Below, piece by piece: positions 5,221-17,973 of a DNA stretch of 64,000 bases (within the stretch, counting starts at the first letter, position 1; each line of letters starts with the position of its first letter). The stretch spans positions 1-64,000 of IMG/VR virus record IMGVR_UViG_3300026197_000002. One strand, given 5' to 3'. The notes under the pieces were generated by a model that was not told the origin of the DNA, searched no databases, and saw nothing but the letters and a program-made list of their open reading frames with translations. Position numbers and translations under genes: made by a program. Origin of the DNA: a virus.

Positions 5221-5401
5221 CTACAAAATAACAAGATGGGAACAAGTATGGGTAAAATACTCATATTATGTAAACGCCCCAAATTTAGAAACGGCAAAAA
5301 ACAAGTTAAAAAATGGTGAGTATTATGATTCTCAACGTGAAGAAGATACAGAGCAGGATGTTCATTGTAAAATAGATGAACCTAATGTAAAAGAATTATG
5401 A
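5213..5401 (+). CDS. Small protein, 62 aa, possibly DpnD/PcfM-like
   Basis: The layout, a beta strand with Trp-Glu-Gln-Val-Trp, a second strand, an Ala-x-x-Leu-Glu-x-Ala-Lys helix, then an acidic tail, resembles the short DpnD/PcfM-like proteins seen on mobile elements. This is recall rather than a match I could test. A 5'-truncated copy of this gene lies at 2743-2838. Its stop overlaps the next start (ATGA at 5398). Confidence 0.55.
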   Translation: MGNYKITRWEQVWVKYSYYVNAPNLETAKNKLKNGEYYDSQREEDTEQDVHCKIDEPNVKEL

Positions 5402-6813: not shown

Positions 6814-7290
6814 ATGAAACAGATAATTAACACAATCCTACTATTATTAGTAGTCCTATCATCTTGTAGTAACTTGCAAGATGTAGAAGAACATGTTGAG
6901 CAATTTAATGAAGACATGTTAGGTGTACGTATAACTTACAGTTATCCAAAAGATATAGCTGTAAGAAACAATGACTACCTAGTTGTACCTACAAAACTCA
7001 TGTTAGATGTAAACGACTACATTATAGCTGAATGTGATACTATATATGCTATTGATATAAATAGTGAGTACACTAATACTATTGAACTACTTGTACCAAA
7101 AGCTGATATTACACATGCACGTTTATTGTCTAAGTTTATACCTATGACATTAGGTGGTGCATATATAACATCACAACAAGTAATAAGAAGTAAGAGTAAA
7201 GAGTGGAAAACAGATAATGAGTTTTTAGAAATAATAAACCATTTATCTGATAATGGTTATGGCATATACATAGAAAGTAATAATTATTAA
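6814..7290 (+). CDS. Phage lipoprotein, 158 aa
   Basis: Lys3 is followed by a hydrophobic segment (residues 4-15) and the lipobox Leu-Ser-Ser-Cys with Cys18, so the product should be cleaved and lipid-modified by the host signal peptidase II pathway. The mature part is about 140 residues with a negatively charged start and several beta strands. It sits directly before the endolysin-like gene, so it may help lysis or act in superinfection exclusion as many phage lipoproteins do; the sequence does not decide. The start ATG has the leader AAATAA-AT-ATG. Confidence 0.65.
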   Translation: MKQIINTILLLLVVLSSCSNLQDVEEHVEQFNEDMLGVRITYSYPKDIAVRNNDYLVVPTKLMLDVNDYIIAECDTIYAIDINSEYTNTIELLVPKADITHARLLSKFIPMTLGGAYITSQQVIRSKSKEWKTDNEFLEIINHLSDNGYGIYIESNNY

Positions 7291-7314
7291 TTATATTTGT
7301 TAAAAAAATTAATT

Positions 7315-8016
7315 ATGAAAGAGAAAATAACACAACAAGCATTGAATCAGATTATTAATTCTGATTTAGTGCTAGATGGTATAATTGGAACTAAGTCAAT
7401 AAATGCTATAAGAACTTTAATAAAAAAGCTAGATACTAGATATAACAATCTAGGATATTCTTGGTACTCTCATGAGATTATAGGATTACGTATGACTAAG
7501 ACATACACTAATAAGTTTACTGATTGGTATATACTACTAAATAGAGATACTCCTAGTAAAACTAGGATATTACCTTGTAGTACATTACCAGGATTATACG
7601 GTTTTGGTGGAGTATTAAACCCTAAAACTGTATATGGTAGACACGGTGTAGCAGTAATGAAGCCTGGTCAATACAAAAAGTGTTACAGATTACAAGGTAT
7701 TAAAAAACCTATGGGTAATACATATTTTGATAATTGGTCAGGTAAAACTTACTTGATGCAAGTAGGTGAAGTAAGTGTTTACCGTGATGGTACAAAAGAT
7801 TGGCTCATTGATTATGATGAAAATACTGTTCAAACAGGTTATTTTGGTATTAATCAACATAGTTGGAGAGGACATTTAAGTAATATAGTGAACAGCCTAT
7901 CACAGGGTTGTCAAGTATATCGTAGTGATATACATGATATGATAGTACCTTTCTGGTTTAACCTAGAAAAGGTACAAGGTAATTTATTAACATATACATT
8001 GTTAGATTTAGCATAG
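7315..8016 (+). CDS. Endolysin-like peptidoglycan enzyme, 233 aa
   Basis: Residues 8-35 match a short peptidoglycan-binding domain (Leu-Asp-Gly-Ile-Ile-Gly-Thr-Lys-Ser-Ile-Asn-Ala-Ile). The catalytic part contains Phe-Gly-Ile-Asn-Gln-His (to His182) and Ser-Gln-Gly-Cys-Gln-Val (Cys199), a His...Gly-Cys arrangement reminiscent of L,D-transpeptidase-like and related phage cell-wall enzymes common in Bacteroidota phages. I chose ATG 7315 over the in-frame TTG at 7297, because 7315 has the TTAATT leader. A TATATTTG (7292-7299) matching the Bacteroidota -7 element lies 15 nt upstream. The likely role is host lysis in the periplasm; no secretion signal is visible. Confidence 0.65.
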   Translation: MKEKITQQALNQIINSDLVLDGIIGTKSINAIRTLIKKLDTRYNNLGYSWYSHEIIGLRMTKTYTNKFTDWYILLNRDTPSKTRILPCSTLPGLYGFGGVLNPKTVYGRHGVAVMKPGQYKKCYRLQGIKKPMGNTYFDNWSGKTYLMQVGEVSVYRDGTKDWLIDYDENTVQTGYFGINQHSWRGHLSNIVNSLSQGCQVYRSDIHDMIVPFWFNLEKVQGNLLTYTLLDLA

Positions 8017-8044
8017 TATATACAGTTAATAGATATATAGTTAT

Positions 8045-8075
8045 AGCTTCTTAGAAATAAGAGGCTTTTTTTTTT
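8045..8075 (+). terminator. Terminator ending exactly at a start codon
   Basis: AGCTTCTTA (8045-8053) pairs with TAAGAGGCT (8058-8066) with one wobble pair and a GAAA loop, followed by ten T (8066-8075). The next base begins the ATG of the 8076 gene. It closes the endolysin transcript and could act as an attenuator for the gene that follows. Confidence 0.75.
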
Positions 8076-8603
8076 ATGAACAATTTTAATAATACACAGA
8101 TGAATAATCAAAATAATGTAAACACTCAAAATAAAAAAGGGGATAATCAACAAACTGAAACTTTTGTAAGTAATTACCCAATCATTCCATTAGATAAATT
8201 TAAGAATGAATATAAAGTTATTACAGAAGAAGGTAAGTGGGAATTACAAGTGCAAACTGTAAGTGACAAGACTTTTACCAATACTATCTTAGATAGAGAA
8301 GAACGCATCATTAATCTCAAAGCTATTAACTTTGCAGATGTAGATGCTATCAGACAAATTGTAGAAAGTAATAACAGTAAAGGTATTTACTATGAACAAC
8401 TTAACAATTTTGCAATGCGTGTAAACGTAGATAGTGATAGACCAACACCTATTAAAGGAGAAATTATTGATGCACACGTACATAGTTATACTAGAAAGCA
8501 CGATAGAGGTGAAGGTAAAGAAGCAGGTACTGATGTCTTAGTGGTAAGAGATATTAGCTTAAAGCCTGGTAAAAAGCCTATGAACCTTGCAGAATTACTA
8601 TAA
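8076..8603 (+). CDS. Hypothetical protein with Asn/Gln-rich start, 175 aa
   Basis: Residues 1-30 are low-complexity Asn/Gln (Asn-Asn-Phe-Asn-Asn-Thr-Gln), then a mostly beta domain with a basic Tyr-Thr-Arg-Lys-His-Asp-Arg loop near residues 137-143, ending in Leu-Ala-Glu-Leu-Leu. The ATG abuts the T-run of a terminator with no room for a ribosome-binding leader, so the gene depends on readthrough or the T-run serves as the leader. No family is recognised. A nucleic-acid-binding role is only a guess from the basic loop. Confidence 0.6.
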   Translation: MNNFNNTQMNNQNNVNTQNKKGDNQQTETFVSNYPIIPLDKFKNEYKVITEEGKWELQVQTVSDKTFTNTILDREERIINLKAINFADVDAIRQIVESNNSKGIYYEQLNNFAMRVNVDSDRPTPIKGEIIDAHVHSYTRKHDRGEGKEAGTDVLVVRDISLKPGKKPMNLAELL

Positions 8604-8854
8604 TGAAATGTATCAAGTTAAGTTATAAAAGTTATATCCTCTATTTTAATACAATAGAGGATATAAATAATGGTGATGTTATACAGATAGGTTCTATATT
8701 ATATAGAGTTTCTTATGTATATCTATCATCTTTTAGGTATCACAGGATTAGTGATGATGTACCTACAATGTATATCAATCCTAATAATAGATATAATTAT
8801 AAAGTTATATCTGAACTAAGGTTAAGAAACTCCCCTTACAATGAGTTTCAATAA
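8603..8854 (+). CDS. Hypothetical protein, 83 aa
   Basis: The start overlaps the previous stop (TAATG). The product is beta-rich and aromatic (Tyr-Arg-Val-Ser-Tyr-Val-Tyr-Leu), fitting a small barrel. A perfect 14-bp inverted repeat lies at codons 10-21 of the gene (8632-8666). No family is recognised. Confidence 0.55.
   Translation: MKCIKLSYKSYILYFNTIEDINNGDVIQIGSILYRVSYVYLSSFRYHRISDDVPTMYINPNNRYNYKVISELRLRNSPYNEFQ
8632..8666 (+). repeat. Perfect 14-bp hairpin inside early coding sequence
   Basis: TTATATCCTCTATT (8632-8645) pairs perfectly with AATAGAGGATATAA (8653-8666) with a 7-nt loop, starting 29 nt after the ATG of the 8603 gene. No T-run follows, so it is not a terminator. Confidence 0.6.
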
Positions 8855-13173: not shown

Positions 13174-15237
13174 ATGAAATACATTTATGATATAGAAGTA
13201 TATCCTAATTTCTATTCCATAGTATTTTATGATGTTGATAGAAATACGTGGTTATATTTCTATTATCTAAATGGTATATGGGAAGGAAATATAGAATACA
13301 AAGATTTACTTATAGTTAAACAAGGATTTCTTATAGGATATAATAGTAATAACTATGATATACATATTCTAAATGAAATTACTAAGAGTTCTAATGTACC
13401 ACAGTCTAATAGTAGAGTTTACAGGCTAAGCTGTGATATTATAGAAAATTCTAAAAGATTATGGAATAATAATCCCAAATCTATTGACTTAGCTACTCAC
13501 ATATTCAATGGTGTACCTGATAGTCTTAAACTTATGGGATGTAAAGTTAATCACCCTAAATTACAAGAATTACCTATTGACCCACATAATAATATATCTG
13601 AAAATGATATAGAACTTATTATGTCTTATAATAAAAATGATGTTGAAATAACACATTCAATATATGAAAAGGTAAAATCTAAACTTAACAGTAGACTTGG
13701 ACAAGGTAAGTTATTTGGTAATTCTGAATTAGATTATTTATCAGATAATGATAGTTGGTTAGCAGGTAAAGCTATTAAAAATGCCTATATGAATATTACA
13801 GGATGTGATTATCAATATCTTAAATCATTGGCTAATAACGATAGACTTATATTATTAGAAGAATGTATCCTAGAACATAATAGGGAACTATGGGATAAAG
13901 TAGGTAATCAATGGGATATACAAGATTGGTATAGATATTACAGTACTCTTGAATATCCAACAGTATCATCTAGTAAGATATTACCTATAAAATTGAATAA
14001 TACAAGTTATCAATTAGGTTATGGTGGAATACATAGTGAAGATGATGCTAGGTTTATAATACCTGATTCAGGTTATAAATTAATAGATGCTGATGTAGCA
14101 TCACAATACCCTAATAAGATTGTTAATAGAAGTATTATAAATCCTAAATTGGATAAAAGATTATTAAAATGGTATGAAACTATAATATCTGACAGATTAG
14201 AATACAAGGCTTTGTATTCTAAGTATAAGAAATCTAATGCTGAATTAGCTAATAAATATAAAAAGGAATCAGATGATAGAAAAATTGTTATCAACAGTTT
14301 CTTTGGTAAATATAAGCAAAAAGGTTTCTTATTATATGACCCTAAATCATTATTACAAGTTACAGTTAATAATCAATTAGAAATACTGTATCTAATATAT
14401 ATGATGGAAATAAATGGTTTTGAAGTATTTACAGCTAATACTGATGGTTTTACTACAAAAGTACCTATATCTAGGGAACAAGAGTACTATGATATATGTA
14501 AGGAATGGGAATCTATTATGCAAATGGATTTAGAATATGCTGAATATCACAGCATGTATCAAACATCTGTTAATAGTTATATAGCTGTTCCACAATACGC
14601 TGTAAATGATACCATCAACTTAGATTATTGTAAATATAAAAATGATTTTCTAACAGATATATCATTAACCAAAGGATATTTTAGTAGAGCTATACCGTTA
14701 GCTTTACAAGCCTATTTTCTAAAAGATACTTCTATAGAAGACTATTTGAATGTAGGAAATCCTAGTCTTACAATATATGACTTTTGTAATTCACAGAAAG
14801 TTGGTAAACAGTTTAAAGTATATTATGGAGATAATGAAGTTCAACATATTAATAGATTTTATATCAGTACTGATGGTAAAACATTGGTTAAAAAAAATGA
14901 TGATAGAACTACATCTATTGTGGCAAATGAATATGTTACTTTAATGAATGATATAGATAATGAAGAATTGAGATATTATGGTAATCTTAAATATGATTAT
15001 TATATTAAAAAATGTTATGAAATAATAGATAAAATTATGAATAAATTTTTAATAACTATTAGAGTACAAAAAGAATCAGATATACAATCTTATGTCAGAC
15101 GTACTAAGAAGAGTAAGAAAGAAGTATATAAAGAAGTTGAAAAAGCATTAAATAAAATATATGGAGAATATACTTTTACACTCCAAGTATCAGATTTTGA
15201 TGAAATTCCTAGATATAATAAAAAAAATTTAAAATAA
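13174..15237 (+). CDS. Family B DNA polymerase, 687 aa
   Basis: The genome replicase with proofreading. The 3'-5' exonuclease motifs are visible: Exo I Asp-Ile-Glu (residues 6-8), Exo II Gly-Tyr-Asn-Ser-Asn-Asn-Tyr-Asp (55-62) and Exo III Tyr-Asn-Lys-Asn-Asp (near 151-155). Polymerase motif A is Asp307-Val-Ala-Ser-Gln-Tyr-Pro, motif B spans Arg369 to Gly378 (Asn-Ser-Phe-Phe-Gly), and motif C is Asn-Thr-Asp424-Gly, all in the right order. The length is at the short end for the family and fits viral PolB. It is followed by the putative frameshift cassette, two helicases and the primase. Many crAss-like phages carry PolB; others carry PolA instead. Confidence 0.93.
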   Translation: MKYIYDIEVYPNFYSIVFYDVDRNTWLYFYYLNGIWEGNIEYKDLLIVKQGFLIGYNSNNYDIHILNEITKSSNVPQSNSRVYRLSCDIIENSKRLWNNNPKSIDLATHIFNGVPDSLKLMGCKVNHPKLQELPIDPHNNISENDIELIMSYNKNDVEITHSIYEKVKSKLNSRLGQGKLFGNSELDYLSDNDSWLAGKAIKNAYMNITGCDYQYLKSLANNDRLILLEECILEHNRELWDKVGNQWDIQDWYRYYSTLEYPTVSSSKILPIKLNNTSYQLGYGGIHSEDDARFIIPDSGYKLIDADVASQYPNKIVNRSIINPKLDKRLLKWYETIISDRLEYKALYSKYKKSNAELANKYKKESDDRKIVINSFFGKYKQKGFLLYDPKSLLQVTVNNQLEILYLIYMMEINGFEVFTANTDGFTTKVPISREQEYYDICKEWESIMQMDLEYAEYHSMYQTSVNSYIAVPQYAVNDTINLDYCKYKNDFLTDISLTKGYFSRAIPLALQAYFLKDTSIEDYLNVGNPSLTIYDFCNSQKVGKQFKVYYGDNEVQHINRFYISTDGKTLVKKNDDRTTSIVANEYVTLMNDIDNEELRYYGNLKYDYYIKKCYEIIDKIMNKFLITIRVQKESDIQSYVRRTKKSKKEVYKEVEKALNKIYGEYTFTLQVSDFDEIPRYNKKNLK

Positions 15238-15245
15238 CTACAACA

Positions 15246-15821
15246 ATGAATAAAAAGTCTTTGGAAAAAGTAGAATCAATAGGTACAGCACCTATTATAT
15301 ATGTTATAGCTGCTAGTACAGCATTATTATTAGCATTAAACTTATTGTTGATATATAATGTATCATCATATTTAGCAACAGCTAATAATAATACTAGCAT
15401 ATTACAATGGTTAGGTATGTCTGCCATAGCATCTATTATGGGAATGTCAATACCTAATATTAAATATATGGATAGTCAAGAAAACACTTCTAAGATAGAG
15501 AGTGTTATTATTATGGTTATGGGAGGATTAATTATATCTATACAAGGATTTATAATTTATAATCTTATAACAACTAATTTAGATAGTCAAGCACAAGTAT
15601 TAGCTATATTTAATGTAGCATTAGGTATTGCAGTAGATGTAATACTAGGATTATTGGCTACTAAAAAAGTAAAAGAGATAATGGGAGTAGTAGATAATAC
15701 TTCTACTAAATCCACAAATACAGCTAGTACTTCCAATAATAATACAGTAAATTCTAGTAGTTCTACTACTAAATCTAGTGTTCCTGTTAAAGTTAAAAAA
15801 AAGGATAAGGAAAAAAAGTAA
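15246..15821 (+). CDS. Four-helix membrane protein, 191 aa, upstream part of a probable -1 frameshift gene
   Basis: Four hydrophobic segments are clear at about residues 16-38, 53-70, 84-109 and 115-138. They are followed by a Ser/Thr/Asn-rich flexible stretch (150-178) and a Lys-rich end (Val-Lys-Lys-Lys-Asp-Lys-Glu-Lys-Lys). The last two sense codons before TAA, with the base before them, form A AAA AAG (15812-15818), a canonical -1 slippery site. The -1 frame stays open for 315 more codons. I infer two products: this 191-residue protein and a 506-residue fusion with the coiled-coil domain encoded next. The place beside the DNA polymerase suggests a link between replication and membrane. 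No family is recognised. Confidence 0.7.
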   Translation: MNKKSLEKVESIGTAPIIYVIAASTALLLALNLLLIYNVSSYLATANNNTSILQWLGMSAIASIMGMSIPNIKYMDSQENTSKIESVIIMVMGGLIISIQGFIIYNLITTNLDSQAQVLAIFNVALGIAVDVILGLLATKKVKEIMGVVDNTSTKSTNTASTSNNNTVNSSSSTTKSSVPVKVKKKDKEKK

Positions 15822-15902
15822 CTGACCAAGTTCAAGAACAACATTATAAAACTCTATTAGATGAAGTATTAGATTATACAATAGAGCATTTGAACTTGGT
15901 CA
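15812..15902 (+). promoter_or_regulatory. Probable programmed -1 ribosomal frameshift signal
   Basis: The slippery heptamer A AAA AAG (15812-15818) is in the correct zero-frame phase, immediately before TAA (15819-15821). After a 4-nt spacer, TGACCAAGTTCAA (15823-15835) pairs perfectly over 13 bp with TTGAACTTGGTCA (15890-15902). Inside the loop, CTCTATT (15852-15858) pairs with AATAGAG (15880-15886). Heptamer, short spacer and strong stem are the known parts of -1 frameshift sites such as bacterial dnaX, which uses the same heptamer. A homopolymer sequencing error is the main alternative, but it would not explain the stem. Confidence 0.65.
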
Positions 15903-16765
15903 AAAAAGATGATTTTAAAGAGGATGTATTTGATAGTTATCATACTTTAACAAGAAATGATACTGAAATTAAATGGTTTTATGAAGAATTATTAGAAATA
16001 TCTGATAAATTAGGAGATGTTGTTAATAAAGTAGATGAATTACATTTAGGTATTGATAAACACATAAACACCTTAAAATCTATGCAATCTTCAAAACAAA
16101 TGTTAGAAGAAGGTGGTAAAGGTAGTCATAATACTGTTGAAAGACAGAATAAAATAGAGGAATTAGAAGAATCTATTAATAAACATCAGGTAACTATAGA
16201 ACTATTGAAGAAACAACTAGAAGTATCTAATGATGACTATGATAACGTAATAGATTCTATTATTGAAATATTAGAACAATATTTTAAGATATATATTTCA
16301 GACTATAATAATGAATTAGTAGTATCTGTAAAAGATATGGACTTTACATCTACTGATAAAGAAGATGTTAGAAGATTAGCTACTAATACTGCTGATTTTA
16401 TAACTCCTTATAGAAAATTCTCTACTACTGAATTAGAAGAATTAGAATATTATTATATGAATAAGAATGTTGAAGAATATTCTAATAAAGTAGCTTATGT
16501 AGAAATGCTTATTAATTCTGCTATTGCTGATAAAAGTAATACTAATAGACATGGTAATATAAGAGGTAGGTTAGAAGGTACTATTACTTATGATACTGCG
16601 GAAGCTACTAATTTTATGATAATATCTAATAAGGTATTTGATGTAGAAAAAGCAGAAGATGAAGATGTTGATGAATTATTACAATGGTTAGTTAGTGTAG
16701 ATGTAATTAATTTTAAAGATATATCAAATTTCTATAATAATGAAATAATAAACGACAATATATGA
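15818..16765 (+). CDS. Coiled-coil domain in the -1 frame, 315 codons, probable frameshift extension
   Basis: The frame is open from the slippery site, and coding-like sequence begins at once (Val-Thr-Asp-Gln-Val-Gln-Glu-Gln-His). No ATG or GTG occurs in this stretch; the first possible start is a TTG at 15890, which lies within the 3' arm of the stem and would delete about 24 well-formed residues. Roughly residues 45-145 of the extension form long charged helices typical of a coiled coil (Leu-Glu-Glu-Ser-Ile-Asn-Lys-His), followed by a mixed domain of about 150 residues. The end overlaps the SF2 helicase start (ATGA). I interpret it as the cytoplasmic part of a membrane-anchored fusion; a separate TTG-initiated protein is the alternative. 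Confidence 0.6.
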   Translation, partial: VTDQVQEQHYKTLLDEVLDYTIEHLNLVKKDDFKEDVFDSYHTLTRNDTEIKWFYEELLEISDKLGDVVNKVDELHLGIDKHINTLKSMQSSKQMLEEGGKGSHNTVERQNKIEELEESINKHQVTIELLKKQLEVSNDDYDNVIDSIIEILEQYFKIYISDYNNELVVSVKDMDFTSTDKEDVRRLATNTADFITPYRKFSTTELEELEYYYMNKNVEEYSNKVAYVEMLINSAIADKSNTNRHGNIRGRLEGTITYDTAEATNFMIISNKVFDVEKAEDEDVDELLQWLVSVDVINFKDISNFYNNEIINDNI

Positions 16766-17973
16766 AAAGAAGAGATATAGAAAAACAAGCGTCTAGTATA
16801 TTTAATGAGTATCATAATATATTATTAGAACTTGCAACAGGTTTTGGTAAAACATCATTAGCTCTTAAATTACTAGATGGTAGAAAAAAGAATCTCATTG
16901 TTGTACCCTATGATTCTATTAAAGACTCTTGGAAAAATGAGGATAAGAAATGGTTTAACGGTAAGAAGTTAGGTAAATCTGATATTATTACTTATCAATC
17001 ATTACATAAAGTTAAAGATATATATGATGCTGTAGTATTAGATGAATGTCATCATATTACAAGTAATAATTTAGGATATGTTAAAGATTTGAATAGTAAT
17101 ATTATAGCTCTTAGTGCTACTGTTGATACTGATAAAAAAGTATTATTATTTGAATTAGGTATTAATAAGATTAATACTATTAGAGTTACAACAGATTCTG
17201 CTATTGATAACGAGGTATTACCAGATTATCGTATGGTAGTATGGAAATTAAATATGGATTATCAGAATAAAAATATACCTATTAAATATAGTAAGAATGG
17301 TAAAAAACAAACATTTTATACTACAGAAGGAGATAATTATAGTTATATTAATGATAACTTTTCTAAAATACAACAATTATTTTATGCAAATGATTTAGAC
17401 CCTTTTAAAATGGCATTTAATAAAGCGTATGTAAAAAAGGTTAATACAGGTAATTCTGATAAAGATAAATTTCTTAAAAGTAGAGGGTTTCTATTCTCTA
17501 ATTATATGAGAAAAAGAAAAGATTTAATATATCAATCTCCTACTAAAAAGACTTATATTAATAAGATTATTAATGAAATGAGAAGGTTAAATAAAAGATT
17601 TATATGTTTTGTAGGAACTATTAATATGTGTAATGAGTTATCTTCTAGCACATACCATAGCAAGATGACTGATGATGCTAAAATTAAAGCATTAGATGAT
17701 TTCAATAATGGTGTAACTAATGAATTATTTGCAGTTAATGCTTTAGATGAAGGAGTTAATTTAAAAGATGTAGAGGTTGGTATTATTGGTCAAATTAATA
17801 GTAAAGAGAGGAGATTAGTTCAACGTCTAGGTAGATTACTTAGAGGTGATAGTGAGCAAATGAATACTTTATACATTACAGTATTAAAAGATACTCAAGA
17901 TGAAAAATGGTTTCATTCTGCTACACAAGATATAGATAAAAACAAAATACAATATGAAGAATATGAAGGATAG
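16762..17973 (+). CDS. Superfamily 2 helicase, 403 aa
   Basis: An ATP-dependent DNA or RNA helicase. Walker A is Ala-Thr-Gly-Phe-Gly-Lys-Thr (residues 25-31), motif II is Asp-Glu-Cys-His-His (94-98), motif III Ser-Ala-Thr (118-120), and motif VI Gln-Arg-Leu-Gly-Arg-Leu-Leu-Arg-Gly (354-362) with arginine fingers. Asp-Glu-Gly-Val-Asn lies before motif VI as in UvsW/RAD25-like SF2 enzymes. At about 400 residues it is a minimal two-RecA-domain form. Its start overlaps the -1 frame extension by 4 nt and its end overlaps the next gene. It likely acts in branch migration or origin handling during replication. Confidence 0.9.
   Translation: MKRRDIEKQASSIFNEYHNILLELATGFGKTSLALKLLDGRKKNLIVVPYDSIKDSWKNEDKKWFNGKKLGKSDIITYQSLHKVKDIYDAVVLDECHHITSNNLGYVKDLNSNIIALSATVDTDKKVLLFELGINKINTIRVTTDSAIDNEVLPDYRMVVWKLNMDYQNKNIPIKYSKNGKKQTFYTTEGDNYSYINDNFSKIQQLFYANDLDPFKMAFNKAYVKKVNTGNSDKDKFLKSRGFLFSNYMRKRKDLIYQSPTKKTYINKIINEMRRLNKRFICFVGTINMCNELSSSTYHSKMTDDAKIKALDDFNNGVTNELFAVNALDEGVNLKDVEVGIIGQINSKERRLVQRLGRLLRGDSEQMNTLYITVLKDTQDEKWFHSATQDIDKNKIQYEEYEG

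Follow-up and report, generated by a model that had tools for sequence, protein, structure and literature searches.

Programmed −1 ribosomal frameshifting in phages has been described for tail assembly chaperones and for coat (capsid) or tail proteins, and in tailed phages the G-T frameshift persists despite low sequence similarity (PMC5009743). The locus analyzed here lies in the replication operon of an environmental crAss-like phage and shares features with several described systems. With Escherichia coli dnaX (tau/gamma), it has in common the A_AAA_AAG heptamer, a downstream stem-loop and a replication-related gene. However, slippage in dnaX yields the shorter product whereas here it would yield the longer one, the proteins show no similarity, and the upstream Shine-Dalgarno element of dnaX is not clearly matched. 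Elements of the IS3 family such as IS911 also combine A_AAA_AAG with a branched RNA stimulator and produce OrfA together with a frameshifted fusion, but the present site has no transposase and is flanked by phage replication genes. The phage lambda G/GT pair is analogous in that two phage products have the same N-terminal part, the slip site is near the end of the first ORF, and the gene arrangement persists among phages whose sequences have little in common. The lambda motif, G_GGA_AAG, is also the one found in a second, distant crAss-like phage described below (L166). By contrast with G/GT, our site is outside the tail gene block, between the genes for a family-B DNA polymerase (PolB) and a helicase; the first product is a membrane protein, and the extensions exceed 200–300 residues and have no match to tail chaperone families. 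Finally, p16.7 of phage phi29 sits in the membrane, has a coiled-coil part in the cytoplasm and is tied to DNA replication, but it is encoded by a single ORF, has one membrane helix, and no sequence relation to it was found here.

The 64-kb stretch of DNA under analysis (the window) belongs to a 92.7-kb virus record. The capsid protein encoded in it shares approximately 29% identity with capsid proteins of Crassvirales (E 7e-38 to cr127_1), in agreement with the crAss-like assignment made in an earlier reading of the sequence alone. A capsid protein and a terminase identical to those of this phage are encoded on a 28-kb contig, IMGVR_UViG_3300007537_000012 (L010, L011), which does not include the frameshift site; the phage is thus present in another assembly. 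Genes around the site are tightly packed, in the order PolB, membrane ORF, −1 ORF, helicase (these four on the plus strand), a 173-codon ORF, a DnaB-like helicase and a Sak4-like ATPase. The upstream neighbor (13174–15237) is a DNA polymerase with family-B-like motifs (PHROG 1252), and the downstream neighbor (16762–17973) is a SNF2/ResIII-type helicase whose gene overlaps the end of the −1 extension by ATGA.

The membrane ORF (191 codons, 15246–15821) ends with GAA AAA AAG TAA and carries A_AAA_AAG at 15812–15818, on the plus strand and in phase with the zero frame. The TAA stop (15819–15821) abuts the 3' end of the heptamer. In the −1 frame, the previous in-frame stop is the TAA at 15806–15808, and the two frames are thus both open over only 13 nt (15809–15821), the interval within which any change of frame must occur and which the heptamer occupies. 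The −1 extension then runs for 315 codons and a stop (15818–16765), so that 191 plus 315 codons would give a fusion of 506 residues. Heptamer phase and ORF lengths, recomputed from the sequence, are those given by the sequence-only reading. Its further statement that no ATG or GTG precedes residue 24 of the extension needs a small correction: neither codon occurs until 16082 (residue 89), and the sole earlier start candidate is a TTG at 15890 (residue 25).

The A_AAA_AAG class is among the three most efficient slippery motifs in E. coli (PMC4066793). It occurs in frame 16 times in the approximately 20,000 codons of the window, where motifs of the type X_XXZ_ZZN of any kind are found at about 0.9% of codons; this gene alone has A_AAA_AAG within 10 codons of its stop. 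A second phased copy is present in the membrane ORF at 15797–15803, 15 nt upstream of the first, and slippage there would be non-productive because it reaches the TAA at 15806. Weak Shine-Dalgarno-like purines (AAGGATAAGGA, 15801–15811, plus strand) precede the heptamer at a spacing that is not ideal; they include an AAGGA at 15801 whose distance to the heptamer is short, and they may be incidental.

A putative stimulatory stem-loop (15823–15902, plus strand), identified by inverted-repeat search and folding, starts 4 nt after the heptamer. Its outer stem consists of 13 Watson-Crick pairs (15823–15835 with 15890–15902), or 14 pairs if a G·U is counted (15823–15836 with 15889–15902), and encloses a nested 7-bp stem (15852–15858 with 15880–15886). 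Both stems and the spacer are as previously noted. Folding of the 90 nt that follow the heptamer gives −23.3 kcal/mol, which is below 200 of 200 shuffles (z −6.5), and these 90 nt rank in the lowest 1% of windows once G+C content is corrected. The usual distance between heptamer and structure is 5–8 nt, and the 4-nt spacer, being slightly short, counts against the signal. The 64 kb contain two places with a perfect inverted repeat of 13 bp or more and a loop no longer than 80 nt. The other, at 8632–8666, is located between an ORF ending at 8603 and an ORF starting at 8841, and is perhaps a terminator or a regulatory hairpin. Rfam gave no match at the site in the window or at that in L166.

Codon log-odds, for which 33 other genes served as the training set, were used to follow coding potential across the junction. 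The change to the −1 frame coincides with the heptamer and not with the TTG. Between 15818 and the TTG at 15890 lie 24 codons with a score of 7.7 bits, compared with an average of 7.2 for true genes, and none of approximately 1,280 off-frame control stretches, which represent out-of-frame coding DNA rather than intergenic DNA, was both open and scored that high. Because these codons are coding-like, translation in the −1 frame appears to run from the slip site onward, ahead of any codon at which it could start.

The zero-frame product (191 residues) has hydrophobic segments near residues 11–35, 49–67, 81–105 and 115–139. The four-helix membrane protein of the sequence-only reading is thus supported, with three strong segments and one, the second, weak. 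Four segments with positively charged N- and C-terminal flanks imply that both ends should be cytoplasmic, and with them the added domain; membrane anchoring of a cytoplasmic domain may fairly be expected. The C-terminal tail is Ser/Thr/Asn-rich and then Lys-rich. It resembles a linker, and makes most sense with something after it. For the extension, the single-sequence AlphaFold model shows a long helical hairpin (residues 48–172) that is confident only at about residues 61–145, with a low overall confidence (mean pLDDT 53). The coiled-coil domain proposed earlier is consequently moderately supported, and the extension is best described as helical and partly coiled-coil.

A parallel case was found in L166, a distant crAss-like phage with the same layout and a sequence unrelated to that of the window. 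A helicase profile search gave 80 environmental loci. These were screened for a membrane ORF with several helices immediately before the helicase gene, and L166 alone among the 80 has a membrane gene with at least three helices directly at this place. The locus was chosen by its membrane ORF, and the frames were inspected only afterwards. PolB, helicase, DnaB and Sak4 surround the site in the same order as in the window, and a 109-kb member of the L166 group carries a crAss-like capsid match. The membrane ORF starts at ATG 4389 or, more likely, 4512, stops at 5286–5288, and encodes a four-helix protein with a basic, disordered tail rich in Gly, Ser and Lys. It contains G_GGA_AAG at 5237–5243, with a GGAGG 9 nt upstream that, unlike the purines in the window, recalls the dnaX arrangement. 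This heptamer is one of the three most efficient motifs in E. coli (PMC4066793). After 5210 the −1 frame stays open as far as 5932 (more than 200 codons), and it has no ATG until 5390, some 100 nt past the stop of the membrane ORF. A branched structure of −34 to −37 kcal/mol follows the heptamer after 5–6 nt, with a z of −2.7 that is to be read in light of the several fold windows tried. L166 also carries G_GGG_GGA at 5273–5279; no strong fold follows this motif, in contrast to G_GGA_AAG. Coding evidence between the slip site and the first start is modest, and the AlphaFold model of the second ORF was uninformative. No resemblance was seen between the soluble domains of the two phages, and their function is therefore not obviously common to both.

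We further scanned 4.04 Mb of related loci, on both strands and with some redundancy, for ORFs that end in a phased heptamer and are followed by a long start-less −1 frame. Five candidates were left: the site in the window, L166 and three others, two of which are antisense to real genes and one of which has a GTG start at the junction. Only the window site and L166 thus remain with coherent coding. Other searches for relatives were negative. No convincing homologs of either protein were found among named phages, Pfam, PHROGs and PDB sequences, or of the extension in IMG/VR; weak matches to PHROG 5105 and to Pfam coiled coils look compositional. Both membrane proteins, compared with whole related phage records, retrieved nothing but themselves. 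Among the PolB-profile loci listed, none has a membrane gene of at least three helices directly upstream of the helicase, and the PolB scan of genome contigs gave no match. L023, L028 and L046 have ORFs of 305–321 codons in this position, which resemble peptidases and not coiled coils, and the best PolB matches, L017 and L018, differ in gene order. With respect to conservation of heptamer and stem, no homologs of the window locus were found, and L166 presents the same layout with a different signal.

The signal anatomy, the two frames, the switch in coding potential at the heptamer and the independent L166 case with its different heptamer are all present in the sequences, and they uphold the original proposal: the site is very probably a programmed −1 ribosomal frameshift. 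The stop directly after the heptamer means that the unshifted product ends there, and most ribosomes would terminate at this TAA to give the 191-residue membrane protein. Some would pause at the stem-loop while Lys-tRNAs occupy AAA in the P site and AAG in the A site, slip back by one base to AAA AAA and read on into the 506-residue protein. The fusion would consist of the membrane module, a basic flexible linker and the 315-residue helical, partly coiled-coil domain, which is predicted to be cytoplasmic. We infer that the slip takes place in the host, and likewise its efficiency and the membrane topology. The membrane pool would then consist of bare subunits and a fraction displaying the soluble domain.

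One alternative is that the A7 run reflects a mistake in assembly or sequencing, or that it recently lost one base, the true or ancestral gene being a continuous 507-codon ORF. One added A does restore a continuous frame, and only one assembly contains the window site, a search of IMG/VR with a DNA pattern across the slip site having returned no second copy. However, the run coincides exactly with a phased heptamer, and the stem after it would serve no purpose in a plain fusion gene; moreover, 52 A/T runs of at least 7 are present in the window with no comparable broken genes evident. In L166 the motif is another one and the site is identical in four contigs from different samples, which speaks against assembly error in that phage. 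We consider an error or deletion quite improbable. The chance of two separate proteins appears slimmer still. The second ORF would start at the TTG at 15890 or at an unusual codon such as the ATA at 15881, perhaps by translational coupling, and the presence of the TTG and the tight gene packing are compatible with this; on the other hand, the 24 codons before the TTG have coding character in the −1 frame, no ATG or GTG occurs up to 16082, and L166 has the same start-less layout. Least probable is transcriptional slippage, in which the host or phage RNA polymerase adds one A to the mRNA and creates the same fusion. The A7 run is short for such slippage, the phased heptamer and stem fit ribosomes better, and the GGGAAAG site of L166 has no long run. 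The presence of an A-run in an AT-rich genome and the possession of their own RNA polymerase by crAss-like phages (PMC7886860) favor this last alternative.

In a survey of crAss-like genomes, the only frameshifts mentioned concern the zeta group and its RNA polymerase ORFs (PMC7886860). The sequence-only reading knew of no description of such a site in crAss-like phages, and a search of an open-access library for crAss-like phages and frameshifting likewise found none, which is not proof of novelty. The programmed frameshift would represent a new use of a known mechanism, the addition of a soluble domain to a membrane protein encoded among replication genes, and would offer a concrete handle on how crAss-like phages organize DNA replication, a subject that is little studied. 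With L166, the idea can be tested in more than one genome. A service to replication is suggested by the position between PolB and helicase; the earlier view of the soluble part as a replisome partner draws on this neighborhood and not on any homolog, fold or interaction. Gene callers would also be splitting one product in two in such phages, and the membrane link would thereby be hidden. As a tentative and rather speculative extension, several crAss-like lineages may have independently built a common device, in which a small membrane protein of the replication operon receives a cytoplasmic domain through ribosomal slippage in a set proportion of its copies, and so ties replication, or the phage genome, to the membrane of the host.

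Two additional observations concern the compared loci. Directly after its helicase, L166 encodes a second membrane and coiled-coil protein (7080–8162, 360 residues) in a single ORF, with a weak spanin-like PHROG match. Self-splicing introns have been reported for crAss-like phages, and GIY-YIG-like endonuclease ORFs split the PolB gene of L166 (2287–3108) and of L096 (3837–4502; Flavobacterium phage FpV21), where they probably mark introns of this kind.
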